From the NCBI GenBank assembly GCA_001768325.1, contig MENQ01000023.1, forward strand, positions 1-64,000: a DNA stretch of 64,000 bases. The letters run 5' to 3'. How positions within the stretch are numbered: the stretch's first letter is position 1; every line of letters begins with the position of its first letter. The translations under genes and the position numbers were made by a program. Below are positions 4,102 through 25,146 of this stretch, piece by piece. The DNA is from Bacteroidetes bacterium GWC2_46_850. Its GTDB lineage: Bacteria > Bacteroidota > Bacteroidia > Bacteroidales > Dysgonomonadaceae. A model generated the notes under the pieces. The model was not told where the DNA came from and made no database searches. It was given only the letters and a program-made list of their open reading frames with translations.

Positions 4102-4134
4102 ATTGTTAAAAAGGAGAGGCATTGTAAAAGGAAG

Positions 4135-5195: not shown

Positions 5196-6224
5196 TTAAA
5201 ATAAATTGGGTATCACCAGTGAAAAAATCAATACAGCCATACCCAGCGCCAGGTAGGCTACTGCCCTTTTACCGGCTCCCTTCCACTCCTTGAGAATGAC
5301 ACCCCAAACATTACTGAAAACCACATTGAGTGCCATGAGAATGCTCCATGAGAATGCCATCATCACACTGTCGGGTTCAAAGAAACTCTGTCCCATTCCC
5401 AGTCCGAAGAATTGTGAGTACCAGAGCAGCCCTGCCAGTGCACAGAACAGGATGTTGTTGGTCAGCACAGCCTTGGAAGAACGGCCTATTTCCCCGGAGG
5501 TCTTGTTTTTCCGGTTCATATAGAGACAATAGACCAGGTTGGTGATAAATCCACCCACCGTCACCAGCAGGGTGACAGGGTTTTGGGCGAACAGTTCTTT
5601 TGCACCAGCAGCCAAAGCCGCTTCTTTCACCGGTACTCCCGCACTGAGTCCCAGGCTGAAACAGGCACTCATAACCCCTGCAAACAGGGCGATGAGGAGT
5701 CCTTTCTTCAGGGCAAAGTCTTTGATGGCTTTTCGGCGTTCTTCCTCCGACATGTTTTTCGAACGCAGGCTCCCGGCATACCCTACCAGGGCAATACCCA
5801 CCAATGTTACTGCTACGGCCAGCAGCAGGATCAATCCTTTGGGTGAGAAGAGATCGGTTCCTGCCAGCACTGCAGGGATAACTGTCCCAAATGCTGCGCA
5901 GGTACCCAGTGCTACCGACTGTCCCAGCGCAATTCCAAGATAGCGCATGCTAAGTCCGAAAGTGAGTCCGCCCACGCCCCAGAGTACACCGTAACCGATG
6001 GCTTTCAAGGCAGCTGCCGGATGGATGGTATAGATTCCGATCAGTTCGGCCGGGCTGTTTGAGATCAATGCACCCAGCAAAGGAAAGAGAAGCCATGCAA
6101 AAACTCCCTGTACCAGCCAGAAGTTTTCCCACGACCATTCCTTGATCTTATTGATGGGGACGTATGAGCTCGACTGGCCCATACTTCCCACAGCAATAAT
6201 CAGTAAACCGATAATGGTATTCAT
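5196..6224 (-). CDS. rhaT: L-rhamnose:proton symporter RhaT
   Basis: Inner-membrane permease that imports L-rhamnose with H+. The 342-aa length is normal for RhaT (E. coli 344), with about ten hydrophobic segments. The N-terminus is typical of the family: GSMGQSSSYVPINKIKEWSW, then FWLVQGVFAWLLFPLLGAL. Later family motifs include GLTFGLSMRYLGIALGQSVA and NVVFSNVWGVILKEWKG. It is the last gene of rhaB-rhaA-rhaT; only three bases separate it from the rhaA stop, and an intrinsic terminator follows. Expression is probably under the AraC regulator encoded just downstream. Confidence 0.95.
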   Translation of the reverse strand: MNTIIGLLIIAVGSMGQSSSYVPINKIKEWSWENFWLVQGVFAWLLFPLLGALISNSPAELIGIYTIHPAAALKAIGYGVLWGVGGLTFGLSMRYLGIALGQSVALGTCAAFGTVIPAVLAGTDLFSPKGLILLLAVAVTLVGIALVGYAGSLRSKNMSEEERRKAIKDFALKKGLLIALFAGVMSACFSLGLSAGVPVKEAALAAGAKELFAQNPVTLLVTVGGFITNLVYCLYMNRKNKTSGEIGRSSKAVLTNNILFCALAGLLWYSQFFGLGMGQSFFEPDSVMMAFSWSILMALNVVFSNVWGVILKEWKGAGKRAVAYLALGMAVLIFSLVIPNLF

Positions 6225-6227
6225 TGT

Positions 6228-7493
6228 CTAGACTCTTTTGGAAGTGATATGCTCCTCATACTGCTGAATCTCTTTGATATATGCATCTCCCACGGGTACA
6301 CCCTGCTGCAGACAGTAGTAGCTGTAGAGTGCATTCCAGGGCATTGCTTTCAGCTCTTCCAGATAAGCAAGGCGTTCAAACCTTTTGTCCTGTTTCTCAA
6401 AGTCACGCAGCTTGTCGGTCGGCTCCAACAAAGCCTGTAACGTTGCCTTCTGTGCAGAGCGGATACCCACCACGTATGCACCGATGCGATTGATGGAGGC
6501 ATCGAAATAGTCCAGTCCCATGTGTACCCGGTTCATCTGACCCGAGCGGACGATCTCCTGAGAAATGGCCATCAGCTCATCGTTCAGGATCACCACGTGG
6601 TCGCTGTCCCACCGCTCCGGACGGCTCACATGCAGGGTCACCTCCGGTACGAATAACAGGATGGATGAAAGCTTGTCGGAGATGGTTTCCGTAGGATGAA
6701 AGTGACCGGCATCCAGCGTTAGAAGCATGTTGTTCTTTACCGCATAGCCCATATAGAATTCGTGAGAACCCACTACATAGCTTTCGCTGCCGATGCCAAA
6801 GAGTTTGCATTCGATGGTATCTTTCAGGTAGTCGGTGCTGATCTTTTCTGCCAGCACTTCGTCGAGCGACTCCTGCAGCAGTTTTCTGTGTGCGTATCGG
6901 GAGACCGTCTTGTCTTTCTCTCCGTCCGGAATCCAGATATTGTGAATACAGGGATCACCCTGTTGGCGTCCCATCTCTGCAGCAATCGCCCTGCAGCGGC
7001 GCAGATGTTCTTTCCAGAAGCGGCGTGTCTCCGGGTCAAAGTCCGAAAGGGTATAACCGCTGTTTGCCTTATCGTGGGAGAAGAAGGTGGAGTTAAAATC
7101 GAGCTTTACTCCTTTTTCTTTGGCCCAGTCGATCCAGCTCTGGAAATGTTTGGGTTCAATCTTGTCACGGTCTACAAACTTACCGCCGAAGTCGCCGTAT
7201 GTTGCATGCAGGCTGATACGGTGTTTTCCGGGAATCAGTGCGATCACCTTTTCAAGGTCGGCCTTTAACTCTTCTATGGTGCGTGCTTTACCCGGATAGT
7301 TGCCGGTAGCCTGTATACCTCCAGTCAGTTCTCCTTCGGGGTTCTCGAATCCCGACACGTCATCGGCCTGCCAGCAATGGATCGAGATGGATAGCTTGTC
7401 CAGTTCTTCAATCGCCTTTGCTGCATCTATACCCAATGAAGCATATTGTGCTTTTGCTTCTTCGTACCCTTTTTTGATCTGTTCTTCGTTCAT
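6228..7493 (-). CDS. rhaA: L-rhamnose isomerase
   Basis: Cytoplasmic metal-dependent isomerase converting L-rhamnose to L-rhamnulose, the first catabolic step. The 421-aa length matches the family (E. coli RhaA 419). Diagnostic stretches are SISIHCWQADDVSGFENP near the N-terminus, KLDFNSTFFSHDKANSGYTL, IWIPDGEKD, LFGIGSESYVVGSHEFYMGY and LTLDAGHFHPTETISDK, which carry metal-binding Glu, His and Asp residues. It lies 38 bp downstream of rhaB and 3 bp upstream of rhaT, clearly one operon. The short AT-rich gap before its start has no strong promoter of its own that I can see. Confidence 0.96.
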   Translation of the reverse strand: MNEEQIKKGYEEAKAQYASLGIDAAKAIEELDKLSISIHCWQADDVSGFENPEGELTGGIQATGNYPGKARTIEELKADLEKVIALIPGKHRISLHATYGDFGGKFVDRDKIEPKHFQSWIDWAKEKGVKLDFNSTFFSHDKANSGYTLSDFDPETRRFWKEHLRRCRAIAAEMGRQQGDPCIHNIWIPDGEKDKTVSRYAHRKLLQESLDEVLAEKISTDYLKDTIECKLFGIGSESYVVGSHEFYMGYAVKNNMLLTLDAGHFHPTETISDKLSSILLFVPEVTLHVSRPERWDSDHVVILNDELMAISQEIVRSGQMNRVHMGLDYFDASINRIGAYVVGIRSAQKATLQALLEPTDKLRDFEKQDKRFERLAYLEELKAMPWNALYSYYCLQQGVPVGDAYIKEIQQYEEHITSKRV

Positions 7494-7531: not shown

Positions 7532-9022
7532 TTATGATTGGATATCCCGAAACACCTCCAGATATCGTTGGTATTGATTATGCCATGTATTGGTTTCTGA
7601 AGGCGTGAAAGTCTCCAGCTCCACTGAATTGCGTACTAGGCGTCGCATGGCATTTTTTTCAGTAATTAGCCCGGCCGCTTTGGCCTGCATCAGCAGGTTG
7701 CCGATCGCGGTGGCTTCCGACGGTCCTGCCACGACAGGCAGTCCGATGGCATTGGCCGTGAAGGTGTTGAGCATATTGTTTTTTGAACCACCACCAATAA
7801 TATGTAGCTTTTCAATGGGGAAGGAAGCAAGCTCCTGCAGATGCTGTAGCACCTGCTTATAGCGCAATGCCAGGCTTTCATAGATGCAACGGGCAATTTC
7901 GCCGATATTTTCCGGTACAAACTGGCCTGTCTGCCTGCAGTAATCCTGTATTGCAGTTATCATGGATACAGGGCTCGCGAAGCAGGATGCATCCGGATTG
8001 ATGAAACATTGAAAAGGAGGAGCCTGCTGAGCAGCTGTCACGATCTCATCATATGTCACCGGACCGCTTCTTTCCCACTCTTTCTTACATTGTTCAATCA
8101 ACCACATACCGCAGATATTCTTCAGAAGACGGATGGAGCCATCGGCACCCCCCTCGTTGGTGAAATTGAGTGCGAAGGTCTCTTCGTTGATGACCGGCTC
8201 ATCGGATTCGATTCCGATCAGCGACCAGGTGCCGGAACTCAGATAGGCAAAATGGGCACTTTCTGCCGGCACTGCCAGCACCGCAGAGGCCGTATCATGC
8301 CCGGCCACAGCAATGACCGAAACATCACCCTGATCGGTCAGACGCTGTACTGAAGATGATATCTTTCCTATCGTTGTCCCTGAGAACACAATCGGCGCAA
8401 ATTTATTTTTTGACAGACCAATGGCATCAAGCAGAGCCGGATCGAAATCTTTTGTGTGGGGATCGATCATCTGTGATGTGGAGGCGATGGTATATTCGGT
8501 GACCATCTGGCCAGACAGCAGATAGGAGAGAGCATCCGGCATAAACAGGATCTTATCGATGAGAGGATAAACAGAAGAATTTTCTTCCCGCATCGTATCT
8601 AGTTGGAATAATGAATTGAAATTCATGATCTGAATGCCGGTCTTTTCGTATACTTTTTCTTTCGGTATTTTGGTGAAAAAGCGTTCCGGGGCACCCTGCG
8701 TGTGAGAATCGCGATAGCTGTAAGGCATTCTGAGAGGTTCGCCGTCAGTCCCGAAACAGACAAAATCAACACCCCAGGTGTCGATACCGATAGAAACGAT
8801 ATGGTGACCATGCAGTTTTGTTTCCCGTAGTGAGATCACAATCTGATTGTATAAATAAAACAAGTCCCAATACAAACGGCCATTTGCTTCTACCATGGGA
8901 TTAGGAAACCGATGGATTTCACACAATTTGAGACGGTCATTTTGAACAGTTCCCAGCAGGGCCCTGCCACTGCTCGCTCCCAAATCGATAGCCAAAAAAG
9001 AGATTAAATTACTTTCACTCAT
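7532..9022 (-). CDS. rhaB: L-rhamnulokinase
   Basis: Cytoplasmic kinase of the FGGY/ASKHA superfamily that phosphorylates L-rhamnulose to L-rhamnulose 1-phosphate with ATP. The N-terminus has the phosphate-1 loop FLAIDLGASSGRALLG. Other motifs are GIDTWGVDFVCFGTDG, the substrate region PYSYRDSHTQG, VAVAGHDTASAV-like AVAGHDTASAVLAVP, YLSSGTWSLIGIE, and the C-terminal adenosine motif LHIIGGGSKNNMLN. Length is 496 aa (E. coli 489). It is the first gene of the minus-strand rha operon and faces the plus-strand operon across a 374-bp region with promoter-like motifs in both directions. Confidence 0.95.
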   Translation of the reverse strand: MSESNLISFLAIDLGASSGRALLGTVQNDRLKLCEIHRFPNPMVEANGRLYWDLFYLYNQIVISLRETKLHGHHIVSIGIDTWGVDFVCFGTDGEPLRMPYSYRDSHTQGAPERFFTKIPKEKVYEKTGIQIMNFNSLFQLDTMREENSSVYPLIDKILFMPDALSYLLSGQMVTEYTIASTSQMIDPHTKDFDPALLDAIGLSKNKFAPIVFSGTTIGKISSSVQRLTDQGDVSVIAVAGHDTASAVLAVPAESAHFAYLSSGTWSLIGIESDEPVINEETFALNFTNEGGADGSIRLLKNICGMWLIEQCKKEWERSGPVTYDEIVTAAQQAPPFQCFINPDASCFASPVSMITAIQDYCRQTGQFVPENIGEIARCIYESLALRYKQVLQHLQELASFPIEKLHIIGGGSKNNMLNTFTANAIGLPVVAGPSEATAIGNLLMQAKAAGLITEKNAMRRLVRNSVELETFTPSETNTWHNQYQRYLEVFRDIQS

Positions 9023-9127
9023 GACGAGGTTAAATTTTTTTTAAAGTTTGATCGCAAACTTACAGTTTAAATCCAGTTTCAACAATGAAATAAATGATTT
9101 AATAACTATACTTTTTGATATTGTTTG

Positions 9128-9158: not shown

Positions 9159-9312
9159 ACATGAAGAAGCAAGATGTCAAAAATCACAGCTAAAATATCA
9201 ATTATTAGAATGGTATCCGGTACAAATTAAATACATTTGTGCATCTTAAAGATAACAATGATTAGAAACCTGTTCTGTGATGCTGTTACAAAAAAAGTAT
9301 ATACCCGTTTTT

Positions 9313-9396: not shown

Positions 9397-10731
9397 ATGG
9401 CAATTGCAGTAATCATGCCCAAACAGGGGCAGTCGGTTGAAAGTTGTATTATTACAGCATTACACAAAAAAAAAGGTGATACCGTGAAGAAGGGAGAAGT
9501 TCTCTTCTCTTATGAAACAGACAAGGCTTCCTTTGAAGAGGAATCGCCGGCTGATGGTACCGTTCTGGTCTCTTTTTATGGTGAGGGCGATGAAGTACCT
9601 GTCCTTGAAAACATGATGATCATTGGCGAGCCGGGTGAAGATATTTCAGCGCTATCTGCTCCTGCCTCCGCAGAAAAAGCTGAGGAAACCACCCCTTCCA
9701 CTGATGTAACCACCCCTTTCACACCCGGCGAAGAAGCTCCAATCTTAGCGGTGCAAACGGTGCAGACCGAAAACCGGTTTATCTCGCCGCGGGCAAAGAA
9801 ACTGGCCGAAAAGAATGCGGTACCGGTTTCACAACTTGCCGGCACAGGTCCCGAAGGCCGGATTGTGGAGAATGATGTAAGGGCATATCTCGCTGATCGT
9901 CCCAAAATGACGCCACTGGCAAAGAAAGTAGCAGTAGAGGAAGGTATTCGACCTGAGTCAGCCGGTACAGGCCTGGCAGGCCGAGCCCGTGCAGCCGATC
10001 TGGCCGTACCGGTTAATACCATCTACGGTATGGATTACGAAGATAAAAAACTGTCGAACATGCGCAAGCTGATTGCCAAGTCGATGCACTCCTCGCTACA
10101 GAATTCCGCACAGCTCACCCATCATCTGGGTGCCGATGCACGACGCATCCTTGCGCTTAGGAAGAAAGCAAAAACGGCACAGGAAGAAGGCCGGATCGCT
10201 GTAAATATTACCCTGAACGACATGGTCTGTTATGCGGTGATCAAAGCATTGAAAAAATTTCCCGAAGTCAACACCCATTTCCTCGGAGACGTCAAACGTT
10301 ATTTTCATAAAGTGCATCTCGGTCTCGCTGTGGATACGGAGCGGGGACTGATGGTGCCAGCCTTGCGCAATGCCGATGATCTCTCCATCGCTGGACTCTC
10401 CGGCCAGCTCGGAGAGCTGGCGGCAGCCTGCCGGGGTGGTAGCGTAAACCCCGACATGCTCGCCGCAGAGGCAGCCACATTCACTGTATCGAATCTTGGC
10501 AGTTATGGGGTTGAAATGTTTACACCGGTGATTAACCTGCCCCAGTCAGCCATTCTCGGAGTAAACACGATCCTGCCCCGCCCGAAAGACCTGGGTGATG
10601 GCGTGTATGCCTTTGTCCCCCACATCGGACTGAGTCTTACCTATGATCACCGTTCCCTGGATGGCGGTGAAGCCACGCGATTCCTGAAACAAATTGCAAC
10701 GGAAATTGAAACCTTGGAAATTGAATTTTGA
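9397..10731 (+). CDS. dihydrolipoamide acyltransferase, E2 of a 2-oxoacid dehydrogenase
   Basis: Core enzyme that passes the acyl group from E1 to coenzyme A through lipoamide. Residues 1-80 are a lipoyl domain with the lipoylated Lys43 in ETDKASF. A Pro/Thr/Ala-rich linker follows (about 82-125). Then come two peripheral-subunit-binding-like domains, at about 127-164 (SPRAKKLAEKN...GPEGRIVENDV) and about 169-204 (TPLAKKVAVEEGIRPESAGTG). The acyltransferase domain ends with the catalytic motif DHRSLDGG, His418. Length 444 aa is normal. It is the first gene of the plus-strand operon that also carries E3 and E1. The acyl substrate (pyruvate, branched-chain or other) cannot be read from the sequence. 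Confidence 0.93.
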   Translation: MAIAVIMPKQGQSVESCIITALHKKKGDTVKKGEVLFSYETDKASFEEESPADGTVLVSFYGEGDEVPVLENMMIIGEPGEDISALSAPASAEKAEETTPSTDVTTPFTPGEEAPILAVQTVQTENRFISPRAKKLAEKNAVPVSQLAGTGPEGRIVENDVRAYLADRPKMTPLAKKVAVEEGIRPESAGTGLAGRARAADLAVPVNTIYGMDYEDKKLSNMRKLIAKSMHSSLQNSAQLTHHLGADARRILALRKKAKTAQEEGRIAVNITLNDMVCYAVIKALKKFPEVNTHFLGDVKRYFHKVHLGLAVDTERGLMVPALRNADDLSIAGLSGQLGELAAACRGGSVNPDMLAAEAATFTVSNLGSYGVEMFTPVINLPQSAILGVNTILPRPKDLGDGVYAFVPHIGLSLTYDHRSLDGGEATRFLKQIATEIETLEIEF

Positions 10732-10790
10732 TTCTGGGGTTTGCCAATGAGTGAATATGAGGATCTAGAAAACAAAACAACAATTCAAAA

Positions 10791-10811
10791 GCTGATTGCT
10801 GACAGCTAACG
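10791..10811. repeat. 7-bp tandem repeat in the E2-E3 gap
   Basis: Three consecutive 7-bp units (GCTGATT, GCTGACA, GCTAACG) lie 22 bp before the E3 start codon. The same unit type occurs at 19372-19399. Confidence 0.6.
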
Positions 10812-10832
10812 AAGAAATTAATATTTACAACT

Positions 10833-12188
10833 ATGATAGATTTATTGATTATTGGCGGCGGTCCTGCCGGATATGTAGCGGCAGAGAGAGCCGGGCATGC
10901 AGGATTGAAAGTGGTTCTTTTTGAGAAAAAAGCAATGGGCGGCGTATGCCTCAACGAAGGATGCATCCCCACGAAAACATTGCTATATAGTGCCAAGATG
11001 TATGAGAATGCCCTGCATGGTGATAAATATGGTGTATTTGGAGACAATATCCGCTTCGACTATGAGAAAATAATCTCCCGAAAGAAGAAAGTGGTTCGCA
11101 AACTTGTATCAGGCGTAGAGAGCAAAATGAAATCAAACCACGTCACTGTGGTGAAGGGGGAGGCCCTTATCGAAGGTCGCTCAGCAGAAGGGATCGAGGT
11201 GACCTGCAACGGAGAGAAATATAGTGGGAAGAATCTGCTGATCTGCACCGGATCAGAAGCCTCTGTACCACCCATCCCGGGTCTGCAGGAAGCAGGTGAG
11301 GTAATTCTTACCAACCGGGAGATACTGGAAATGACAGAGCGTCCAGCATCACTCGTCGTCATTGGTGGCGGTGTAATCGGCATGGAGTTCGCCAGTTTCT
11401 ATAATAGCCTGGGGACAAAAGTGACCGTGGTGGAGATGCTTCCCGAAATACTGGGCGGCCTCGACTTTGAAGTGTCGGCCATGCTGCGTGACATCTATAC
11501 AAAAAAAGGAATTACATTCAACCTGAATGCAAAGGTGGTGCAGATTGCGGACAACAAAGTTGTTTTCGAGAAAGAAGGTGAAACCCACAGCGTGGAAGGT
11601 GAAAAGATCCTGTTGAGCGTGGGCCGTCGCCCGGTTACAAAGGGATTTGGCCTGGAGAACCTGGGTGTGGAACTGCTGCGCAATGGAATCAAGGTAGATG
11701 AAAAGATGCGCACCAACATTCCCGGCGTATTTGCAGCAGGTGATGTGACTGGCTTCTCACTGTTGGCCCATACGGCAAGCCGCGAAGGAGAGGTGGTGGT
11801 CAACAACCTCACCGGTCGCAACGACATCATGCGCTACAACGCCATCCCTGGTGTGGTTTATACCAACCCCGAAGTGGCTGGTGTGGGAGAGACTGAAGAA
11901 TCGGCCAAAGCGAAAGGCATTGCCTACAAAGTAGCCAAACTGCCCATGGCCTATGCAGGACGTTTTGTTGCCGAGAATGAAGGTGGTAGCGGGATATGTA
12001 AGGTCCTGGTGGGTGAAAAGCATGGCGAAGTGATTGGCGTACATCTGCTCGGCAATCCTTCCAGCGAGATTATATACGGTGCCTGCATCGCCATTGAACA
12101 GGAGATGACCCTGAAAGAGATGCAGGAGGTGGTCTTCCCACATCCTACCGTCAGCGAAATTCTAAAAGAGACTGTTTTTAGTTTTTAG
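10833..12188 (+). CDS. lpdA: dihydrolipoyl dehydrogenase (E3)
   Basis: Flavoprotein that reoxidises dihydrolipoamide on E2 and reduces NAD+. The N-terminal FAD motif is IIGGGPAGYVAAERAGHAG. The redox disulfide is Cys39/Cys44 in GGVCLNEGCIPTK. The NAD-binding fold starts LVVIGGGVIGMEFASFYNS. The second FAD contact is GVFAAGDVTG. The dimerisation domain ends with FPHPTVSEILKE, which supplies the active-site His-Glu pair. Length 451 aa is typical. It lies 101 bp after E2 and 37 bp before E1, in the order E2-E3-E1. Both gaps carry short tandem repeats instead of obvious promoters. Confidence 0.95.
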   Translation: MIDLLIIGGGPAGYVAAERAGHAGLKVVLFEKKAMGGVCLNEGCIPTKTLLYSAKMYENALHGDKYGVFGDNIRFDYEKIISRKKKVVRKLVSGVESKMKSNHVTVVKGEALIEGRSAEGIEVTCNGEKYSGKNLLICTGSEASVPPIPGLQEAGEVILTNREILEMTERPASLVVIGGGVIGMEFASFYNSLGTKVTVVEMLPEILGGLDFEVSAMLRDIYTKKGITFNLNAKVVQIADNKVVFEKEGETHSVEGEKILLSVGRRPVTKGFGLENLGVELLRNGIKVDEKMRTNIPGVFAAGDVTGFSLLAHTASREGEVVVNNLTGRNDIMRYNAIPGVVYTNPEVAGVGETEESAKAKGIAYKVAKLPMAYAGRFVAENEGGSGICKVLVGEKHGEVIGVHLLGNPSSEIIYGACIAIEQEMTLKEMQEVVFPHPTVSEILKETVFSF

Positions 12189-12220
12189 CAATCAGTAAAT
12201 CAAACAATCAGTAAATAAAT
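12189..12220. repeat. 8-bp-period tandem repeat in the E3-E1 gap
   Basis: Four 8-bp units (CAATCAGT, AAATCAAA, CAATCAGT, AAATAAAT) fill the gap from the E3 stop codon to 5 bp before the E1 ATG. The 12-base block CAATCAGTAAAT occurs twice with a 16-bp period. Composition resembles the larger array at 14690-14886. Confidence 0.55.
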
Positions 12221-12225
12221 ATAAA

Positions 12226-14685
12226 ATGCCTAAAGTTCAAATCATTGATCCGTCACAGGTACGTAAGCCGGGGTTCGTGGAGTTTCAGCCCATCCCGGTC
12301 AACCAGTATCAAAAGAGCGTGAAAGAAGAGAAAGAAAATTTTTCGAACGAAGAGTTCAAAGCCATTTATCATGACATGGCGCTGATCCGTGAGTTCGAAA
12401 CCATGTTGAATCTGATCAAGACCAAGGGGGAGTATAACGGTACGCCCTACAATCACCCCGGACCGGCACACCTCTCCATCGGACAGGAGTCGGCAGCCGT
12501 GGGCATGGCCTGGACGCTGACAGTAGATGACTTTATCTTCGGCAGCCACCGTTCACATGGTGAGATCCTGGCCAAAGGGATGTCGGCCATCCACAAGCTG
12601 GATGATGCCAAACTCACAGAGATCATGGATAATTTCTTCGATGGCGCGGTCGTAGATATCGTGAAAAAAGATTTCAACGGGTCGGTTAAGGAACTGGCCG
12701 AACGCTTTCTGGTATACGGTACGCTGGCGGAGATCTTTGCCCGCAAGACCGGATTTAACAGAGGGCTGGGCGGCTCCATGCACGCCTTCTTCACCCCCTT
12801 CGGTGTCTATCCCAACAATGCTATCGTGGGCGGATCGGGCGACATAGCCGTGGGCGCAGCACTCTACAAGAAGGTGAACCGCAAACCGGGACTGGTGGTG
12901 GCCAACATTGGCGACGCCTCCCTGGCATGCGGCCCGGTATGGGAGGGAATCAACTTTGCCGCGATGGATCAGTTTACAGAACTCTGGGAAGGAGAGATGA
13001 AAGGCGGTCTGCCGGTGATCATCAACATCATGAACAATCAGTACGGCATGGGCGGCCAGACCGTGGGTGAGACCATGGGCTACGGCATTGCAGCCCGCAT
13101 TGGCGCTGGCGTGAACGGCGAGCAGATGCATGCCGAACGGGTAGATGGTTACAACCCGCTGGCTGTGATCGACGCCTACAAACGCAAACGCAAAGTAATC
13201 GAAGAAAAAAGAGGTCCGGTGCTGCTCGATGTACTCACCTACCGGTACAGCGGTCACTCGCCCTCGGACGCCTCTTCCTATCGCACCAAAGAAGAGGTGG
13301 AGGCATGGGAGTCACAGGACTGCATCCGCAGCTACGGTGTGCAGCTGCTGGAGGCTGAGGTGGCATCGCAGGCTGACCTTGATCTGATATCGGATAATAT
13401 TCAGAAACTGGTGAACGAGATGTTCCTGCTGGCCATCAACGATGAAGTGTCACCCCGGATGGACAATGCCGATGTCATCGGAGAGATGATGTTCTCCAAT
13501 GGATCGGTCGACTCTTTCTCCGATGTAAAACCGGATGTGTTGATGTCGATGGAGGAAAATCCGCGCGTGAAAAAGATTGCCAACAAGGAACGTTTAGCCT
13601 TCGATGCCGAAGGGAAGCCTTACAGCAAGATGAAGCAGTACCAGCTGCGCGACGGCATCTTCGAGGCAATCATCGACCGTTTTTATAAAGATGCATCACT
13701 TATTGCTTATGGTGAGGAGAACCGCGACTGGGGCGGTGCCTTTGCCGTGTATGGCGGACTGACCGAGGCGTTGCCTTATCACCGCCTCTTCAACTCGCCG
13801 ATTGCCGAGGCATCCATTGTGGGCACCGCCATCGGCTACGCTATGTGCGGTGGGCGGGTGATTCCTGAGATCATGTACTGCGATTTCATCGGCAGAGCCG
13901 GTGATGAGATATTCAACCAGCTGCCCAAATGGCAGGCCATGAGCGGCAACGTACTGAAAATGCCGGTAGTGGTACGCGTTTCGGTAGGATCCAAATATGG
14001 TGCACAACACTCACAGGACTGGACCTCACTGGTGGCACACATCCCGGGTATCAAGGTCTGCTTCCCGGTCACACCCTACGACGCCAAAGGATTGATGAAT
14101 GCGGCACTGCAAGGCACCGACCCGGTGATCTTCTTCGAGAGCCAGCGCATCTATGATGTGGGAGAACAGTTTCACGAAGGAGGCGTTCCGACTGGCTATT
14201 ATGAAATTCCGCTGGGCGAACCCGATGTGAAGAAAGTGGGAAAAGACATCACCTTCCTCACCATCGGACATACACTCTACCCAGCTTTAAAAGCAGCAAA
14301 AGAACTCGAAGAAAAATATGGTCTCAGCGCCGAGGTGATCGATGCCCGCTCGCTGGTGCCCTTCAACTATGAGCAGGTGATTGCGTCGGTAAAGAAAACC
14401 GGAAAGATTATTGTGGCCGGTGAAGCCACCACCCGGGGATCCTTCCTGAATGACCTGGCGGCAAACGTCGGTCAGATGGCATTCGACTACCTTGATGCTC
14501 CTGTATGCGTACTGGGTTCCCGCAACTGGATCACCCCGGCACATGAACTGGAAGATGCCTTCTTCCCGCAGCCCTCCTGGTTCCTGGATGTGATCCACGA
14601 ACGGATTCAACCGCTGAAAGGGTATATCCCCGGCCAGAACTTCACCGACGGCGAGATGGTGAAACGGGCAAAAAAGGGAATTTGA
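12226..14685 (+). CDS. fused E1 alpha/beta subunit of a 2-oxoacid dehydrogenase complex
   Basis: Thiamine-diphosphate enzyme that decarboxylates a 2-oxo acid and reductively acylates E2. Residues about 40-410 are the alpha part: IGQESAAVGMAW, FGSHRSHGEILAKG, LGGSMHAF, and the ThDP/Mg motif from GDASLACG to INIMNNQYGMGG. Residues about 460-819 are the beta part: YGEENRDWGGAFAVYGGL, MYCDFIGRAGDEIFNQL, and the C-terminal DARSLVPF and NWITPAHELEDAFFP. In many bacteria alpha and beta are separate; here they are one 819-aa chain, a form common in Bacteroidetes. It requires thiamine diphosphate, and a thiamine salvage operon lies near 58-61 kb. Substrate is unproven; pyruvate is plausible given the rhamnose context. 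Confidence 0.92.
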   Translation: MPKVQIIDPSQVRKPGFVEFQPIPVNQYQKSVKEEKENFSNEEFKAIYHDMALIREFETMLNLIKTKGEYNGTPYNHPGPAHLSIGQESAAVGMAWTLTVDDFIFGSHRSHGEILAKGMSAIHKLDDAKLTEIMDNFFDGAVVDIVKKDFNGSVKELAERFLVYGTLAEIFARKTGFNRGLGGSMHAFFTPFGVYPNNAIVGGSGDIAVGAALYKKVNRKPGLVVANIGDASLACGPVWEGINFAAMDQFTELWEGEMKGGLPVIINIMNNQYGMGGQTVGETMGYGIAARIGAGVNGEQMHAERVDGYNPLAVIDAYKRKRKVIEEKRGPVLLDVLTYRYSGHSPSDASSYRTKEEVEAWESQDCIRSYGVQLLEAEVASQADLDLISDNIQKLVNEMFLLAINDEVSPRMDNADVIGEMMFSNGSVDSFSDVKPDVLMSMEENPRVKKIANKERLAFDAEGKPYSKMKQYQLRDGIFEAIIDRFYKDASLIAYGEENRDWGGAFAVYGGLTEALPYHRLFNSPIAEASIVGTAIGYAMCGGRVIPEIMYCDFIGRAGDEIFNQLPKWQAMSGNVLKMPVVVRVSVGSKYGAQHSQDWTSLVAHIPGIKVCFPVTPYDAKGLMNAALQGTDPVIFFESQRIYDVGEQFHEGGVPTGYYEIPLGEPDVKKVGKDITFLTIGHTLYPALKAAKELEEKYGLSAEVIDARSLVPFNYEQVIASVKKTGKIIVAGEATTRGSFLNDLAANVGQMAFDYLDAPVCVLGSRNWITPAHELEDAFFPQPSWFLDVIHERIQPLKGYIPGQNFTDGEMVKRAKKGI

Positions 14686-14689
14686 TAAA

Positions 14690-14886
14690 ATGATTCGATG
14701 ATTCGGTGATGTGATGATTAATCAACAAATCTGCAAATCTGCAAATCTGCAAATCTGCTAATCTGCAAATCTGCTAATCTGCAAATCTGCTAATCTGCAA
14801 ATCTGCTAATCTGCTAATCTGCAAATCTGCTAATCTGCAAATCTGCTAATCAACTAATCTGCTAATCAACTAATCTGCTAATCAAT
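14690..14886. repeat. 197-bp array of 8-bp tandem repeats before the PHP gene
   Basis: The stretch 14690-14721 has units such as ATGATTCG repeated with 8-bp period. From 14719 to 14886 there are 21 units of 8 bp, nearly all AAATCTGC or TAATCTGC, with TAATCAAC variants at both ends. The array ends 2 bp before the ATG of the PHP-domain gene and fills nearly the whole gap after E1. The period is not a multiple of three and the tract is non-coding. Copy number changes by slippage would alter the distance between E1 and the next start. Confidence 0.92.
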
Positions 14887-14888
14887 TT

Positions 14889-16055
14889 ATGATAAATATA
14901 AACGCCCACTTACACACCCCTTATTCATTTAGTGCCTTTCGGGATATTGATGAGGCGCTGGACAGGGCTGTGGCTGAAAATGTGAGTGTAGTCGGGATCA
15001 ACGATTTTTACACTGCCAAAGGGTATGAAGCGTGGGCCGACGGTTGTCGCAAACGGAAACTGTACCCGCTGTTCGGGATCGAGTTTATCAGCCTGAATGA
15101 AGCGGATCAAAAAGCCGGCCTGCGGGTTAACGATCCTGCCAACCCCGGTCGCACCTATCTTAGCGGAAAAGGGATGTCGCATCCCTTCCGGTTGAGTGAA
15201 CCGTATGCAACACTCCTCTCTTCGGTGCAGACCGAGTCGAACCGGCAGGTGGAGGCGATGTGTGCGAAGCTGAATGAGCTCCTCCGGGAAAAGAAGGCAT
15301 CCTTCACCCTCGATGTGGAGCAGATCAAACAGGATCTGACCAGCGGCTCACTCCGTGAACGCCATCTGGCCAGAGCACTGCGAATGAAAGTATATGAGAC
15401 CTGTCACAATGAGGAGGCTGAGATACAATCACTATTGACGAAGCTTTTCGATGGAAAAACAATGAAGTCATCGGTGAACAATATCGCCGCTGTGGAGAAT
15501 GAAATTCGTGGTAACCTGCTGAAAGCCGGCGGTGCTGCGTTTGTACCCGAGGAGGCGACTGCCTTTCTCCCGATGGAGAAGGTGCAGGAACTGATTGTGG
15601 CAGCGGGGGGCATTCCCACCTATCCCTTTCTGGCGGACGATGCCCAGGGCTACTACACCGACTTTGAATCGGACCTGGAACGGGTGGCCGAACAACTGAC
15701 AGAGAGGGGTTTTCATTCGGTAGAATTTATCACCACCCGCAATGATGTGGCGTTATTGGAGAGATATGCTGCCTATCTGCATGACCGGGGTTTTGTGGTT
15801 ACCTTCGGCAGCGAACACAATACCCCCGCCATGGAGCCCATCGAACTGTTTGCACGGCATGGCGCACCCCTGACCGACAGGCTGAAGCAGATAAACTATG
15901 AGGGCGCCTGCCTGATTGCTGCACATCAGCATGTAGTTTCACAGGGACTGGCGGGTTATGTGGATGCCCACGGAAATGCAGATCGTTCAAAAAGAGATGA
16001 ATTTGTGACGTTGGGTGATGCACTCATCAAAAATGAACTGGACGTAAACCGGTAA
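14889..16055 (+). CDS. PHP-domain protein of unknown function
   Basis: 388-aa cytoplasmic protein with no signal peptide. The N-terminus has the PHP metal-binding motif NAHLHTPYSFSAF (HxH at residues 6-8), then GINDFYT and GIEFISL. Further candidate ligands are in PTYPFLADD and the C-terminal VVTFGSEHNTPAM. PHP proteins are metal-dependent phosphoesterases or polymerase-associated nucleases, so a sugar- or nucleotide-phosphate hydrolase is possible, but I cannot name the substrate. A middle segment (about 110-220) is helical and charged. It lies between E1 and the aldolase/dehydrogenase fusion, only 10 bp before the latter, so a role in the same carbon pathway is likely. Start chosen so that the metal motif is at the extreme N-terminus. 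Confidence 0.8.
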   Translation: MININAHLHTPYSFSAFRDIDEALDRAVAENVSVVGINDFYTAKGYEAWADGCRKRKLYPLFGIEFISLNEADQKAGLRVNDPANPGRTYLSGKGMSHPFRLSEPYATLLSSVQTESNRQVEAMCAKLNELLREKKASFTLDVEQIKQDLTSGSLRERHLARALRMKVYETCHNEEAEIQSLLTKLFDGKTMKSSVNNIAAVENEIRGNLLKAGGAAFVPEEATAFLPMEKVQELIVAAGGIPTYPFLADDAQGYYTDFESDLERVAEQLTERGFHSVEFITTRNDVALLERYAAYLHDRGFVVTFGSEHNTPAMEPIELFARHGAPLTDRLKQINYEGACLIAAHQHVVSQGLAGYVDAHGNADRSKRDEFVTLGDALIKNELDVNR

Positions 16056-16065
16056 AGAGCATAAA

Positions 16066-18024
16066 ATGAAGGAAATTCAACAACTGATAGAGATATCGCA
16101 ATTCTATGGTAGTGACATTCGCTTTGTAATTGCCGGTGGCGGAAACACCTCCTACAAGAACAACGAAAAAATATGGGTGAAGGCAAGCGGTTCATCGCTC
16201 GCCACCATCACTGAAGCGGGATTTGCCGTGCTCGACAGGGCAATGCTTAACCCGATGTCTGAGAAAATATATAGCAGTGTACCCGATGAGCGGGAAGAAC
16301 AGGTGAAAAACGACCTGGCCGCAGCTACCCTTACCAAAGGAAAACGTCCCTCGGTGGAGACCTCGATGCACAATGTGATCGACCATCCTTTTGTGGTACA
16401 TCTGCACCCGACAGCGGTGAACGGACTGATGTGCGCACAGGATGCCGAAGCCTCACTGAAAAGGTTGTTTGGAGACAAAACACTCTATGTGGAATATACC
16501 GATCCCGGATATCTGTTGTTCAAAAAGGTATATGACCGGATCAAGGCCTACCGGGCATCCTACGGGGAGGAGCCGAAGGTGATCTGGCTGCAGAACCATG
16601 GTATCTTTGTGGCTGCCGACACCCTCGATGAGATAAAGAGGATTTATGCCGATATACTGGATCAACTCGAAGGAGCCGTAACAGACCCGTTACCTTCGGA
16701 GGAAAAAGGATCCTCTCACAGCGTAGTTGAGACGCTCCCCGCATTGCGGATGATGCTCTCCCAGAATGGATTGAAAACGTTAAGGGTACGCAATAACGCA
16801 CTGATTGAATACTACAATCAGGCAGATAATCAGCAGGATATATCCAGGCCATTTACGCCGGATGCGATCGTCTACTGCAAATCAAACTATCTCTTCCTGC
16901 AGGAAGAAGTACCCGATAAGATTCTTTCCGAAGCGAAGAAGGAGATAGTCGCCTTTACCGGAAAATCTGATTATCAACCAAAGGTGTTGCTGATCAAGGG
17001 GATCGGGCTGGTCGCTGTGGGTGACAATGCCATCCAGTGCGACATCATTCTCGATGTATTCGAAGATGCGATGAAAGTAGCCTGGTTATCTCGATCATTT
17101 GGTGGTCCGCACCCGATGACCCGGGAACAGATCGACTTTATCGACAACTGGGAGGTGGAAAATTATCGCCGCAGCGTGGCTGCAGGCGGATCCAAAGGAC
17201 GTGCCGAGAACAGAACCATCATCATCACCGGTGCCGCACAGGGCTTCGGCGAAGGCATCGGTCGCTGCCTCCTGCCGGAAGGAGCCAACATTGTGGTGGC
17301 CGACCTGAACGAAGAGACGGGCAGGGCCACGGCAGCCGACTTTAACCGGAATACGAGAAGCAACCAGACACTTTTCGTAAAGACAAATGTGGCGGATATC
17401 GCCAGCCTGGAGAATCTTGTCCGGGAAACGGTTTGTGCGTTTGGCGCCATCGACGGTTTTATCAGCAACGCGGGTGTGCTGCGGGCAGGAGGACTGGAAG
17501 AAATGACACCGGAGAACTTCGATTTTGTCACCCGCATCAATTACAACGCTTACTTTTACGCGACCAAGGTGGTCAGCCGGGTGATGAAGCTGCAAACAAA
17601 ATATGCCCCTGAGGATTATTTTGCCGACATCATCCAGATCAATTCCAAATCGGGTCTGCAGGGAAGCAAAGCCAATTTTGCCTATGCAGGTGGAAAGTTC
17701 GGCGGTATCGGCCTCACACAGTCCTTCGCGCTGGAGCTGGCTCCCTTCCGCATCAAGGTGAACGCCATTTGCCCGGGTAACTTCTACGAGGGCCCCCTCT
17801 GGAGTGATCCCGAAAACGGCCTCTTTGTGCAGTACCTGAAGGCAGGAAAAGTGCCCGGTGCCAAAACAGTGGAGGATGTGAAAGCGTTCTACCTGTCAAA
17901 GGTGCCCATGGGCAAGGGATGCACCCCGGTCGACGTGACCAGAGGGGTGCTTTACCTGATGGAGCAGTGCGGCGAAACAGGGCAGGCACTCCCCATCACC
18001 GGTGGACAGGTAATGCTAAATTAA
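16066..18024 (+). CDS. bifunctional class II aldolase / short-chain dehydrogenase (probable rhamnulose-1-phosphate aldolase and lactaldehyde dehydrogenase)
   Basis: Residues about 1-370 are a class II aldolase with GGGNTSYKN, VETSMHN, the zinc motif VVHLHPT and LQNHGIFVAA. Residues about 383-652 are a short-chain dehydrogenase with the NAD motif TGAAQGFGEGIG, NAGV, the catalytic Ser in INSKSG and Tyr540xxxLys544 in YAGGK. Fusions of this kind (RhaEW/YuxG type) cleave L-rhamnulose 1-phosphate to dihydroxyacetone phosphate and L-lactaldehyde and oxidise the aldehyde to lactate. No stand-alone RhaD is visible nearby, which fits this gene supplying the missing step. It is slightly shorter than the Bacillus protein. 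It lies 20 bp upstream of the zinc dehydrogenase gene. Substrate is inferred from family and context. Confidence 0.85.
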   Translation: MKEIQQLIEISQFYGSDIRFVIAGGGNTSYKNNEKIWVKASGSSLATITEAGFAVLDRAMLNPMSEKIYSSVPDEREEQVKNDLAAATLTKGKRPSVETSMHNVIDHPFVVHLHPTAVNGLMCAQDAEASLKRLFGDKTLYVEYTDPGYLLFKKVYDRIKAYRASYGEEPKVIWLQNHGIFVAADTLDEIKRIYADILDQLEGAVTDPLPSEEKGSSHSVVETLPALRMMLSQNGLKTLRVRNNALIEYYNQADNQQDISRPFTPDAIVYCKSNYLFLQEEVPDKILSEAKKEIVAFTGKSDYQPKVLLIKGIGLVAVGDNAIQCDIILDVFEDAMKVAWLSRSFGGPHPMTREQIDFIDNWEVENYRRSVAAGGSKGRAENRTIIITGAAQGFGEGIGRCLLPEGANIVVADLNEETGRATAADFNRNTRSNQTLFVKTNVADIASLENLVRETVCAFGAIDGFISNAGVLRAGGLEEMTPENFDFVTRINYNAYFYATKVVSRVMKLQTKYAPEDYFADIIQINSKSGLQGSKANFAYAGGKFGGIGLTQSFALELAPFRIKVNAICPGNFYEGPLWSDPENGLFVQYLKAGKVPGAKTVEDVKAFYLSKVPMGKGCTPVDVTRGVLYLMEQCGETGQALPITGGQVMLN

Positions 18025-18044
18025 TATTTTAAAATCACGAAGTA

Positions 18045-19322
18045 ATGATAAAGACAAGAGCAGTAAGGCTGCACGGAAAAAAAGACCTTCGTTTGGAAGA
18101 GTTTGAGTTGCCGCAGATCAAAGAGGATGAGATCCTGGCCAAAGTGGTCTCCGATTCACTCTGTATGTCCTCTTACAAGGCATCGTCACAGGGAACAGAT
18201 CATAAGCGCATACCCGACGATGTGGCGGAAAACCCCATCATCATCGGTCACGAGTTTGCCGGTGAACTGCTGGAGGTGGGTGCAAAGTGGTCAGACAAAT
18301 TTAAAGCAGGCGACAAGTTCTCTATTCAGCCCGCGCTGTATTACGAAGATGGTCCGGTGGGGATACTGAGTGCTCCCGGGTACAGCTACCAACATATAGG
18401 CGGTGATGCCACCTATGTGATCATTCCCAACGAGGTCATGGAAAAAGATTGCCTGCTGGCCTACCACGGCGAAGGGTATTACCCTGCTTCGCTGGCCGAG
18501 CCGCTCTCCTGCGTCATCGGTGCCATGCATGCCAACTACCACACCACCCCGGGAAGTTATGTCCACAAGATGGAGATTGTAGATGGCGGAAAGATGGCGA
18601 TCCTGGCCGGTGTGGGCCCCATGGGACTGGCGGCCATCAATTATGCGCTACACAGGGAGGATCGTAAACCCTCGTTGCTGGTGGTGACAGACGTGGATCA
18701 GGCCAGGCTCGATCGTGCGGCTTCCATTTACACTGTCGATTTTGCCGCCTCAAAGGGGATCGACCTGCAATATGTCAACACCGGAAAAGTAGAGGATCCC
18801 GTGAAAGAACTGAAAGCCATCAGTGGCGATACCGGCTACGACGATGTCTTCGTCTTCGCTCCGGTGAAGCCTGTGGTGGAGCAGGGGGATGCCATCCTCG
18901 CTTTCGACGGATGCCTTAACTTCTTTGCCGGACCGGGAGATCCCGACTTTAGCGCGTTGCTTAATTTTTACAACGTACATTATGCCTATACCCACATTGT
19001 GGGTACCAGCGGTGGAAACAATGACGACATGGTAGAAGCGCTCGACATCATGGGGAAAGGACTCGATCCGGCCGGACTGATTACCCATATCGGCGGACTG
19101 GATGCAGTGGCGGAAGCGACCAACAACCTGCCCCATATCCCGGGCGGTAAAAAACTGATATATACCCATATCGATCTCCCTCTGACACCCATTGCCGACT
19201 TTGAAAAGCTGGGCGAAAACAACGATCTGTTCCGTGAACTGGCACTTATCTGCAACAAAAACAAAGGATTGTGGAGTGTGGAGGCAGAAACATTTCTGCT
19301 GAATTACTTTAATAAGTTATAA
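18045..19322 (+). CDS. zinc-type alcohol dehydrogenase, L-sorbose-1-phosphate-reductase-like
   Basis: 425-aa medium-chain dehydrogenase. The N-terminal catalytic fold contains KVVSDSLCMSSYKASSQG and the IIGHEFAGELLEVGAKW region typical of the family. The nucleotide-binding fold has LAGVGPMGLAAINYAL. Overall wording of these motifs resembles proteins annotated L-sorbose 1-phosphate reductase (SorE-like), which interconvert a ketose phosphate and a polyol phosphate. The usual four-Cys structural zinc cluster is not evident. It is translationally close to the aldolase/SDR gene. In this operon it could act on rhamnulose 1-phosphate or on a C3 product such as lactaldehyde; I cannot decide. Confidence in the superfamily is high, in the substrate low. 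Confidence 0.83.
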   Translation: MIKTRAVRLHGKKDLRLEEFELPQIKEDEILAKVVSDSLCMSSYKASSQGTDHKRIPDDVAENPIIIGHEFAGELLEVGAKWSDKFKAGDKFSIQPALYYEDGPVGILSAPGYSYQHIGGDATYVIIPNEVMEKDCLLAYHGEGYYPASLAEPLSCVIGAMHANYHTTPGSYVHKMEIVDGGKMAILAGVGPMGLAAINYALHREDRKPSLLVVTDVDQARLDRAASIYTVDFAASKGIDLQYVNTGKVEDPVKELKAISGDTGYDDVFVFAPVKPVVEQGDAILAFDGCLNFFAGPGDPDFSALLNFYNVHYAYTHIVGTSGGNNDDMVEALDIMGKGLDPAGLITHIGGLDAVAEATNNLPHIPGGKKLIYTHIDLPLTPIADFEKLGENNDLFRELALICNKNKGLWSVEAETFLLNYFNKL

Positions 19323-19371
19323 CTGATCATCACTTGGCAACAGCTGTCAGTACAATCATTGCTCCCAAGGA

Positions 19372-19399
19372 GCTGATCGCTGACTGCTGACCGCTGATA
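19372..19399. repeat. 7-bp tandem repeat before the two-domain aldolase
   Basis: Four units of 7 bp (GCTGATC, GCTGACT, GCTGACC, GCTGATA) lie 12 bp before the next start codon. The unit matches the array in the E2-E3 gap. Confidence 0.7.
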
Positions 19400-19411
19400 T
19401 CTTCAAAAAAT

Positions 19412-20713
19412 ATGAAACAATTAGATGTAAACTTAATGCACCCGGTGGAGCAGATCAATGTGATCATCGGACGGATTTATAAAAGTGGCATGACCACCAC
19501 CTCGGGTGGAAATATCTCCATCAGGGACAAGAACGGCGATATCTGGATCACTCCTTCGGGGGTGGACAAAGGCTCGCTCACCGTGAAGGATATCATGCAG
19601 GTGAAAAGGGACGGTACCCTGATCGGACCTCACAAACCTTCTTCGGAGCTACCCTTTCACAAAGCGATCTATGAAGCACGACCCGAATTGACGGCCATCA
19701 TCCATGCGCATCCGCCTGCACTGGTGGCTTTCAGCATTGCCGGCATTGTGCCAGACACGAAGATTGTTCCCCAGGCCCATAACATCTGCGGCGACATCGG
19801 CTTTGCACCCTATGGGACTCCAGGTAGCGAAGATCTGGGTGAAAAAATTGCCCATGAATTCAGGGAAGGCAATTACAAGGCGGTGATCATGGAGAACCAC
19901 GGTGTGGTACTGGGTGGCACCGATATGATGGATGCCTATCAACGCTTTGAGACACTGGAGTTTTGCTGTCGCACCATTGTAAATGCCAAAAGACTGGGTC
20001 AGGTGAACTACCTCTCCGATGAGCAGGTATCGCAGTATGTACATCATCTTCCGTCTAATGTGGCTCACTCGATGGATATTCAACATCCTTCGGAGGAGAG
20101 GGCCATCCGGACCGAGATGGTGAACATCATCCGCAGAGCCTGCGATCAGGGCCTGATGATCTCGACCTACGGAACGGTTTCAGTACGATGGGGTAACAGC
20201 AACGACTTCCTGATTACGCCCAGCAACATTGCCCGTTGGGATATCGTCTCCAGTGATCTTGTACAGATCAAGAACGGGATGGCGGAAGCAGGTAAAACGC
20301 CGAGTCGCTCGGTGGCATTGCATCAGCGTATCTACCAGCTCAATCCCCACATCAATTCCATTATCTGCACCCAGCCGGTGAACCTGATGGCTCATGCGGT
20401 GAGCGGTAGCAAATTCGATGTACGTACCATCCCCGAAAGCTGGATCTTCCTGCAGGATGTTCCCTCTATTCCTTTTGGCTTGATTTACAACGATGTGGAC
20501 AGCGTAGCGAAGATGTTCCAAAAGAACCGGGTGGTGCTGGTGGAAAATGACAGCATATTTATCACCGGAGATAAGCTTCTGAATACGTTCGACTACCTTG
20601 AGGTGGCTGAGTTTTCTGCCAACTCACTGGTGATGGCAGCTTCCATCGGACCCCTACAGCCTATTGGCGATGAGGAGATCGATGACCTGCGGGTTGCCTT
20701 CAATGTGAAATAA
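19412..20713 (+). CDS. two-domain class II aldolase/adducin family protein
   Basis: 433 aa made of two tandem class II aldolase folds. Domain 1 (about 10-210) keeps the family site: GGNISIRD, the catalytic-Glu region SSELPFH, the zinc motif HAH at residues 98-100 and ENHGVVLGG. Domain 2 (about 225-430) is recognisable by TYGTVSVRW and FLITPSN, but has Cys-Thr-Gln (319-321) where HAH should be, SRSVALH in place of SELPFH, and ENDSIFI in place of ENHG, so it has probably lost metal and activity. It is the last gene of the operon and is followed by an intrinsic terminator. Substrate unknown; L-rhamnulose 1-phosphate or a related ketose phosphate is a reasonable guess. Confidence 0.85.
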   Translation: MKQLDVNLMHPVEQINVIIGRIYKSGMTTTSGGNISIRDKNGDIWITPSGVDKGSLTVKDIMQVKRDGTLIGPHKPSSELPFHKAIYEARPELTAIIHAHPPALVAFSIAGIVPDTKIVPQAHNICGDIGFAPYGTPGSEDLGEKIAHEFREGNYKAVIMENHGVVLGGTDMMDAYQRFETLEFCCRTIVNAKRLGQVNYLSDEQVSQYVHHLPSNVAHSMDIQHPSEERAIRTEMVNIIRRACDQGLMISTYGTVSVRWGNSNDFLITPSNIARWDIVSSDLVQIKNGMAEAGKTPSRSVALHQRIYQLNPHINSIICTQPVNLMAHAVSGSKFDVRTIPESWIFLQDVPSIPFGLIYNDVDSVAKMFQKNRVVLVENDSIFITGDKLLNTFDYLEVAEFSANSLVMAASIGPLQPIGDEEIDDLRVAFNVK

Positions 20714-22189: not shown

Positions 22190-22213
22190 AGGTCTAAAGT
22201 CGTTAGATTTGAT

Positions 22214-23707: not shown

Positions 23708-23711
23708 GATG

Positions 23712-25112: not shown

Positions 25113-25146
25113 AAGAGTTTCTTTTTAAATTGATTAACAACCTGCA

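Follow-up and report, generated by a model that had tools for sequence, protein, structure and literature searches.

An operon of Bacteroidales linked to L-rhamnose and L-fucose use, and a possible carbonyl-shift route from 6-deoxyhexoses to acetyl-CoA

The locus and its proteins

The window, a stretch of 64,000 nucleotides from contig MENQ01000023.1 of Bacteroidetes bacterium GWC2_46_850 (a Proteiniphilum-like genome of 3.75 Mb with a stated completeness of 100), carries a rhaB-rhaA-rhaT operon and an AraC-family gene that diverge from seven genes in the order E2-E3-E1-PHP-aldolase/SDR-zinc dehydrogenase-tandem aldolase, SDR being short-chain dehydrogenase/reductase (Table 1). These seven genes are conserved in Bacteroidales, are linked to both rhamnose and fucose and probably form a 6-deoxyhexose module. 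An earlier reading of the same DNA, hereafter the original prediction, had described this gene content and divergent layout, and both were confirmed, with the open reading frames (ORFs) in place and the families assigned by profile matches. The closest named locus is that of Proteiniphilum sp. UBA5267, whose PHP protein is 92% identical.

Table 1. Features of the divergent locus, in window positions.
Feature	Position	Strand	Basis
GH78-type rhamnosidase gene, beyond the AraC gene	1822..4122	-	
AraC-family regulator, probable RhaR	4135..5028	-	Pfam HTH_18, AraC_binding; beside rhaT in many relatives
RhaT, L-rhamnose/proton symporter	5196..6224	-	NF010022, 410.7 vs cut-off 369 bits
RhaA, L-rhamnose isomerase	6228..7493	-	TIGR01748 above cut-off
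RhaB, rhamnulokinase	7532..9022	-	TIGR02627, 528.9 vs cut-off 527.95 bits
Putative RhaR site facing rhaB	9092..9112	-	21-bp motif, 24.5 bits
Putative second RhaR site facing the seven-gene operon	9183..9203	+	14.0 bits
E2, lipoyl acyltransferase (lipoyl, E3-binding and catalytic domains)	9397..10731	+	Pfam
E3, dihydrolipoyl dehydrogenase	10833..12188	+	TIGR01350 above cut-off
E1, thiamine-dependent dehydrogenase, alpha and beta fused, 819 aa, separate subfamily	12226..14685	+	
PHP-fold protein, probably a metalloenzyme	14889..16055	+	Pfam PHP; structure model; invariant columns
652-aa protein: class II aldolase-like domain, middle domain, SrlD-like SDR	16066..18024	+	
Zinc dehydrogenase, SorE/YggP family	18045..19322	+	52.4% identity to annotated SorE
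Tandem class II aldolase (433 aa), domain 2 degenerate; candidate alternative rhamnulose-1-phosphate aldolase	19412..20713	+	

Aldolase_II matches in the genome amount to three genes, namely those for the 652-aa and 433-aa proteins plus an AraD-like gene whose neighbor, judged by eye, is an araA-like ORF. RhaD is absent above cut-off, as NF002963 matches the tandem aldolase only (49 bits against 170) and TIGR02624 gives no match at E 1e-15; with only three Aldolase_II genes present, this absence holds genome-wide at that search sensitivity and agrees with the original prediction that the usual RhaD is lacking. By Pfam, the 652-aa protein is an aldolase-SDR fusion over its full length, and the PRK08324 profile matches residues 2-579. 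Against the RhaEW equivalog TIGR02632 it scores 224.2 bits, below the cut-off of 567.75, and it is 24-26% identical to plasmid-borne RhaEW members over the whole length. In the class II aldolase alignment, the presumed metal ligands are retained in its aldolase domain, which has Glu at a position where AraD of this genome has Asp. Since a RhaEW-like 706-aa protein of genome G496 also has Asp, this residue does not decide whether the domain may be an AraD-like epimerase.

The second aldolase had been predicted to have two domains, and both are present, but the alignment shows the presumed metal-binding and acid/base residues to be intact in domain 1 alone. The tandem aldolase is also found in rhaA-kinase operons of a Persicobacter plasmid and of three genomes (G747, G820, G840) in which neither the 652-aa protein nor E1 was found, and in G840 it is the sole class II aldolase found. 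Because it sits in rhaT-rhaA-kinase operons and stands alone in G840, a role as FucA is disfavored and a RhaD-like role is likelier, so that its sequence and context make it a candidate alternative rhamnulose-1-phosphate aldolase. A rha operon without RhaD, arranged as RhaT-RhaA-FGGY kinase-(Fe-ADH)-tandem aldolase, was seen in several Bacteroidota (L240, 4697-11254; L292; L291; L290), the Persicobacter plasmid among them.

The zinc enzyme, described as SorE-like in the original prediction, was confirmed as such by 52.4% identity, with 99% covered, to a Klebsiella plasmid protein annotated as SorE (E 1e-125); its membership of the SorE/YggP family predicts reduction of a ketose 1-phosphate. 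The best solved relative of the SDR is sorbitol-6-phosphate dehydrogenase (5o3z), and its score against NCBIfam SrlD is 196.8 bits, below the cut-off of 307. The PHP protein passes the Pfam PHP gathering score (29.1 vs 26.4 bits), has 58 invariant columns across 39 sequences and gives a structure model with a predicted local distance difference test score of 94.2, the nearest solved folds being the PHP phosphoesterases 9etk and 2yb1. Sequence searches returned only five chance-level matches in the PDB and no match on plasmids. The protein is probably a metalloenzyme with the PHP phosphoesterase fold and may hydrolyze a phosphoester. In a locus named Tannerella (L223, 4301-7942), whose stretch lacks the rest of the module, the PHP gene is next to transketolase and RpiB genes; in one named Dysgonamonadaceae (L214, 6444-9675), a PHP gene likewise on its own adjoins a transketolase gene 63% identical to that of L223.

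E1 aligns with solved pyruvate dehydrogenase E1 chains, has an extra stretch in its alpha part and falls below the curated cut-offs for pyruvate dehydrogenase E1 (TIGR03182, 190.9 vs 393.85 bits; PRK09212, 225.2 vs 321 bits). In a comparison of 66 genomes, E1 was found at no less than 72% identity in all six module-bearing control genomes, whereas among the 60 others it was found at 73-89% in three (G071, G086 and G603, the match in G603 being cut by a contig end), only at 35-41% in three and not at all in 54. As judged from sequence, E1 is thus a subfamily of its own and the acyl-CoA-forming complex is dedicated, as originally predicted, its E1 tracking the module (6/6 vs 3/60 at ≥72%). An ordinary pyruvate or branched-chain complex is ruled out by this dedicated subfamily and by a second E1-like match in the window genome, at 36% identity. 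Among the best 30 of 719 plasmid records, the matches above 50% were alphaproteobacterial and the next lay at about 33%. Gene context was read for three: relatives at 51-53% identity lie in operons of Rhizobium, Agrobacterium and Pleomorphomonas with sugar kinases and with lipoyl and alpha/beta-hydrolase (acoC-type) partners, an acetoin-type context. Alphaproteobacterial plasmid operons L237, L238 and L239 combine an E1 relative (51-53%) with a small lipoyl protein, an alpha/beta hydrolase, a sugar-binding or DeoR-type regulator and sugar kinases, and their substrate is possibly a phosphorylated 1-deoxyketose.

Directly downstream of the module, at 20852-31779 of the window, lies a SusC/SusD locus with a GH30 enzyme, FecR and an extracytoplasmic function sigma factor. 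Several close relatives have a lipoate-protein ligase gene after the tandem aldolase (e.g., L061, 16638-17414), which was not seen in the window.

Distribution and linkage to rhamnose and fucose genes

In an order-wide sample of 393 genomes, the 652-aa protein was found, whole or as a half, in 53 genomes and RhaA in 89; as only three candidates were scored per genome, halves of the protein can be missed. RhaA was present in 46 of the 53 carriers and in 43 of the 340 non-carriers (odds ratio 45), and neither this nor any other count given here is corrected for kinship. The carriers include G608, with a match at 29% identity, and three genomes with the aldolase half only (G500, G506, G508); RhaA occurs in 43 of the 47 aldolase-half carriers, G608 left out. 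The 652-aa protein, RhaA or both occur in 96 genomes, and the tests for RhaD and FucI covered 80 of these (all except G608 and 15 RhaA-positive non-carriers). RhaD was found at E 1e-15 or better in 5/52 carriers vs 23/28 RhaA-positive non-carriers. Within the family, the 652-aa protein occurs in 54 and RhaA in 72 of 101 genomes (both in 44, the 652-aa protein only in 10, RhaA only in 28). RhaD exceeds the NF002963 cut-off in 2/54 carriers vs 22/28 RhaA-only genomes, the six RhaA-only genomes without it being G040 and five of the window's genus. In a phylum-wide sample of 395 genomes, with few members of the order, the 652-aa protein was found in the window genome only.

The layout is likewise retained. 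rhaB and E2 are adjacent and divergent in 13 of the 16 fetched family loci that show both, and in G072, G052, G054, G060 and G063 the module lies at a distance of about 4-43 kb on the same contig. The aldolase half is missing or a remnant in G036 (L074, L169) and G045 (L040), and RhaA was not found in either genome. Across 33 close-relative loci with full flanks (the named loci), E1, E3 and the SDR were present in all, E2 and the aldolase half in 32 each and the zinc enzyme in 31, followed by the tandem aldolase (28), RhaB (23), lipoate ligase (19) and RhaA (16). Since gene order is kept across genera, the locus is not a chance assembly. A second set of 33 loci, taken order-wide for an SDR at >45% identity, contains PHP in 29, the zinc enzyme in 29 (only 26% identical in L121), E1 in 27, the aldolase half in 23, a GntR/UTRA regulator in 20, E3 in 12 and RhaA in one. 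FSA- or TalB-type genes lie near the module in 6/33 order-level and 3/33 named loci. Whether homologous operons occur mostly without rhaABT, which the original prediction had named as speaking against a link to rhamnose, has a divided answer. Close relatives argue against it, as 24 of the 33 named loci have a RhaA, RhaB or RhaT match (a RhaB match may be the kinase of a fucose gene set) and nine have none in the stretch. The distant loci lean towards it (RhaA in 1/33), their rha genes being seldom in the stretch and mostly elsewhere in the same genome. Proteins of the 23S rRNA-intervening-sequence type are encoded inside or beside the module in L057 (13689-14036) and L111 (9163-9576).

In several relatives the 652-aa protein is split in two genes. 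The aldolase half, of about 370 aa, then adjoins rhaA in L126, L128 and L133 and is near it in L124 and L135 but not in L137 or L299, while the SDR half remains with a copy of the middle domain in a PHP-SDR-zinc enzyme set with E1-E2. A family of 460-470 aa proteins is encoded near rhaA, the aldolase half or the module (L126, 4973-6385; L135, 7769-9154; L137, 10804-12186; L117, 17796-19184), and the one member scanned had no Pfam match.

The two operons also have a sequence motif in common. A custom-written Gibbs sampler, which reports one site per region by construction, found a near-identical 21-bp site in 14 divergent rhaB/E2 regions with a score of 246.6 against 146-155 in three shuffles, a gain that overstates the significance because a site was forced in each region and the regions are related, some pairs being nearly alike. 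A weaker copy facing E2 reaches at least 8 bits in 12 of the 14 regions (not L068 or L074), a level that shuffles of similar stretches can attain; the E2-facing site of the window was scored with a matrix trained on the Gibbs-search sites. Where the operons lie apart, a matrix trained on the divergent loci and the rhaB site of L053 detected the motif before E2 in three of five relatives (L059, L062 and L063, at 14.4-21.4 bits and in 0/100 shuffles; not found in L057 or L058) and before rhaB in L053, L054, L062 and L035 but not L063, with L059, L062, L063, L054 and L035 being outside the training set. In 25 more distant E2 upstream regions the best score was 7.6 bits, and two regions (L110, L125) had p 0.05 or less. 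The motif is presumably bound by the AraC protein (RhaR), and the module of this genome probably belongs to the RhaR regulon. RhaA co-occurrence, the motif common to both operons and near-exclusion with RhaD bear out the tie to rhamnose use in the original prediction and rule out that the seven genes are random neighbors. That they form an unrelated passenger operon beside rhaBAT is very improbable, as the single RhaA in the stretches of the 33 distant loci is set against the co-occurrence (46/53 vs 43/340), the near-exclusion, the common motif and the fucose linkage.

This fucose linkage is clearest in two genomes singled out after the census. G726 (99% complete) has FucI, FucK and FucP above the NCBIfam cut-offs, and its fucI-fucK-fucU-fucP genes (C5:125314-130571) are followed by a GntR gene and E2-E3-E1-PHP-SDR-HAD-zinc enzyme-FSA, ending at 144061; RhaA was not found and no Aldolase_II match was obtained genome-wide at E 1e-6. 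In G609 (90% complete), FucI is encoded together with a rhamnulokinase-like kinase and a FucU-like ORF on one contig and the module lies on another; AraD is the only class II aldolase found, and there is no RhaA match. The fucI-fucK-fucP genes lie a few kb from the module in G745 and G654, a kinase gene follows the module in G616 and G501 (in G616 with fucI), and in L161, L163, L166 and L192 (named Paludibacter or Bacteroidetes) fucI and a kinase gene precede E2 in the same orientation. The SDR occurs without a 652-type aldolase half in five order genomes (G551, G609, G654, G726, G745), all of them FucI-positive. RhaA is present in three of these, whose rha operon includes a tandem aldolase, with a distant (23-25%) aldolase of 310-346 aa nearby. 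Overall, FucI was found in 39/52 tested carriers vs 11/28 tested RhaA-positive non-carriers. In the census, fucI had a class II aldolase gene no more than 10 kb away in 0/25 FucI-positive carriers vs 3/9 non-carriers, although contigs can end sooner. FucO exceeded its cut-off in 0/34 carriers vs 10/26 non-carriers, and at E 1e-60 the counts were 13/34 and 14/26. Elsewhere in the window genome are two fucose isomerase genes, one of them close to a FucP gene.

Possible chemistry and competing explanations

In the preferred reading, to which a probability of roughly 0.48 is given, the SorE- and SrlD-like enzymes would shift the carbonyl of a 6-deoxyhexose phosphate from C2 to C5, and the complex would then split the resulting methyl ketone, yielding acetyl-CoA and a tetrose phosphate. 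RhaA and RhaB, or FucI and a kinase, would supply L-rhamnulose- or L-fuculose-1-phosphate, the zinc enzyme would reduce the C2 ketone to a 6-deoxyhexitol 1-phosphate, and the SDR would oxidize C5 to give a 1-deoxyketose 6-phosphate. With rhamnulose-1-phosphate supplied to such enzymes, the ketone would come to lie beside the methyl group, so that an acetoin-type complex could release acetyl-CoA; E1-E2-E3, as an acetoin dehydrogenase-like complex, would cut C4-C5 with CoA and NAD+, and the tetrose 4-phosphate would enter the pentose phosphate pathway. L-rhamnulose- and L-fuculose-1-phosphate differ at C4 only, and since this sole differing center would become the aldehyde, both sugars would converge and one module could serve both. 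The aldolase domain of the 652-aa protein might bring rhamnulose-1-phosphate into the module (e.g., as a C4 epimerase) or cleave it in parallel, while a phosphorylated intermediate, the tetrose phosphate or another, would be the substrate of the PHP protein. The TalB- and FSA-type genes near some modules, and the PHP gene beside transketolase and RpiB in L223, fit the predicted tetrose phosphate.

Mutations in aceE are reported to let Escherichia coli survive without 1-deoxy-D-xylulose 5-phosphate synthase (PMC3424233), from which we infer that the E1 of pyruvate dehydrogenase can accept a 1-deoxyketose phosphate. The chance falls just short of even that rhamnose and fucose are degraded without aldol cleavage, with neither lactaldehyde nor 1,2-propanediol formed; in that case the E1 subfamily, present in rhizobia too, would mark out a general class of 1-deoxyketose-phosphate dehydrogenases. 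No such pathway is described in the titles or abstract openings of the open-licence PubMed Central literature searched.

Several points weigh against this carbonyl-shift reading. Every reaction in it is deduced from what was observed, namely linkage, co-occurrence, family assignments and the common motif. The 652-aa protein has a RhaEW-like architecture that is unneeded for fucose and only loosely explained for rhamnose, and the window retains a tandem aldolase besides. The tetrose expected, which would be D-threose 4-phosphate if the reduction follows that of SorE, is not a standard intermediate. G726 or G609 may have an unlinked aldolase outside class II, and an FSA-like gene adjoins the module in G726. 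Of the 52 tested carriers, 13 gave no FucI match. In L055 and L218 the stretch contains the PHP and 652-aa genes but lacks E2, E3, a complete E1 and the zinc enzyme, and the rhizobial stretches gave no zinc-enzyme or SDR match. Hydroxyacetone or methylglyoxal may also be the substrate of the complex.

Formation and oxidation of lactaldehyde, as proposed in the original prediction, is the other of two live options and not the favored one. In this less likely RhaEW-type route, the 652-aa protein and/or the tandem aldolase would cleave rhamnulose-1-phosphate to dihydroxyacetone phosphate (DHAP) and L-lactaldehyde, on which rhamnose and fucose would converge, the SDR would make lactate and, after further oxidation, the complex would yield acetyl-CoA. 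The shared architecture (PRK08324/TIGR02632 matches and the whole-length identity to plasmid members), the split aldolase halves that adjoin or lie near rhaA and the near-absence of RhaD from carriers argue for it, and the RhaEW precedent together with the retained aldolases keeps it alive. However, the 652-aa protein lies far under the RhaEW cut-off (224 vs 567.75 bits), and both the SorE-like enzyme and the PHP protein are left without a role. The module also accompanies L-fucose genes, in G726 without a class II aldolase match and in G609 with AraD only, both dehydrogenases resemble enzymes acting on sugar or polyol phosphates, and relatives of E1 occur in kinase-containing rhizobial sugar operons; it is for these reasons that the lactaldehyde route is not favored. 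Considerably less probable still is a mixed use, in which the operon would join two pathways, perhaps for redox balance, with the aldolases running the DHAP and lactaldehyde route for rhamnose and the zinc enzyme, SDR and complex serving another sugar or polyol phosphate. It would suit the split genomes, in which the aldolase half lies apart from the module while the SDR stays within one flanked by GntR, as well as G863, whose rha operon with Fe-ADH and tandem aldolase lies beside the module, and G040, which has rhaBAT and a tandem aldolase elsewhere and no E1 or 652-aa match, but it sits poorly with the single block opposite rhaB seen in 13 of 16 family loci and with the common motif.

Comparison with known systems

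If the carbonyl shift takes place, two of the six carbons would pass straight to acetyl-CoA, changing the predicted fermentation products and energy yield in settings such as anaerobic digesters, the rumen, termite guts and the intestine, and the orphan aldolase/SDR fusion, a PHP family and an E1 subfamily without a name would each gain a function. If confirmed, it would be a new way for anaerobic Bacteroidales to use two common plant and mucus sugars.

SorE and sorbitol-6-phosphate dehydrogenase together move a carbonyl along a hexose phosphate. The module resembles this L-sorbose pathway (SorE, SrlD/SorD) in pairing a zinc ketose-1-phosphate reductase with an SDR of the polyol-phosphate dehydrogenase type, yet no sorbose genes were recognized in the operon, the SDR is fused to an aldolase domain, and with 6-deoxy sugars the product would be a methyl ketone. 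With the acetoin and pyruvate dehydrogenase complexes it shares E1, E2 and E3, and its E1 aligns with that of pyruvate dehydrogenase but is fused and has the extra stretch in the alpha part. RhaEW (YuxG), the bifunctional rhamnulose-1-phosphate aldolase/L-lactaldehyde dehydrogenase, likewise has a class II aldolase followed by an SDR in one chain and is found in rha loci where RhaD is missing. RhaEW of Chloroflexus and Bacillus cleaved rhamnulose-1-phosphate in vitro (PMC3870299). The 652-aa protein differs from it by its low identity (24-26%) and score below the curated cut-off, by being split in some genomes with the SDR half in another operon, and by its link to a dedicated E1-E2-E3 complex, the PHP protein and a SorE-like enzyme. 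Established phosphorylated catabolism of rhamnose and of fucose proceeds by splitting the sugar phosphate into DHAP and lactaldehyde, so that 1,2-propanediol or lactate is the product expected from plant and mucus sugars. Module carriers have the isomerase, kinase, permease and AraC or GntR regulator of these classical pathways, but unlike the FucA/RhaD and FucO/RhaO pathways, their aldolase and lactaldehyde reductase are rarer or not found.

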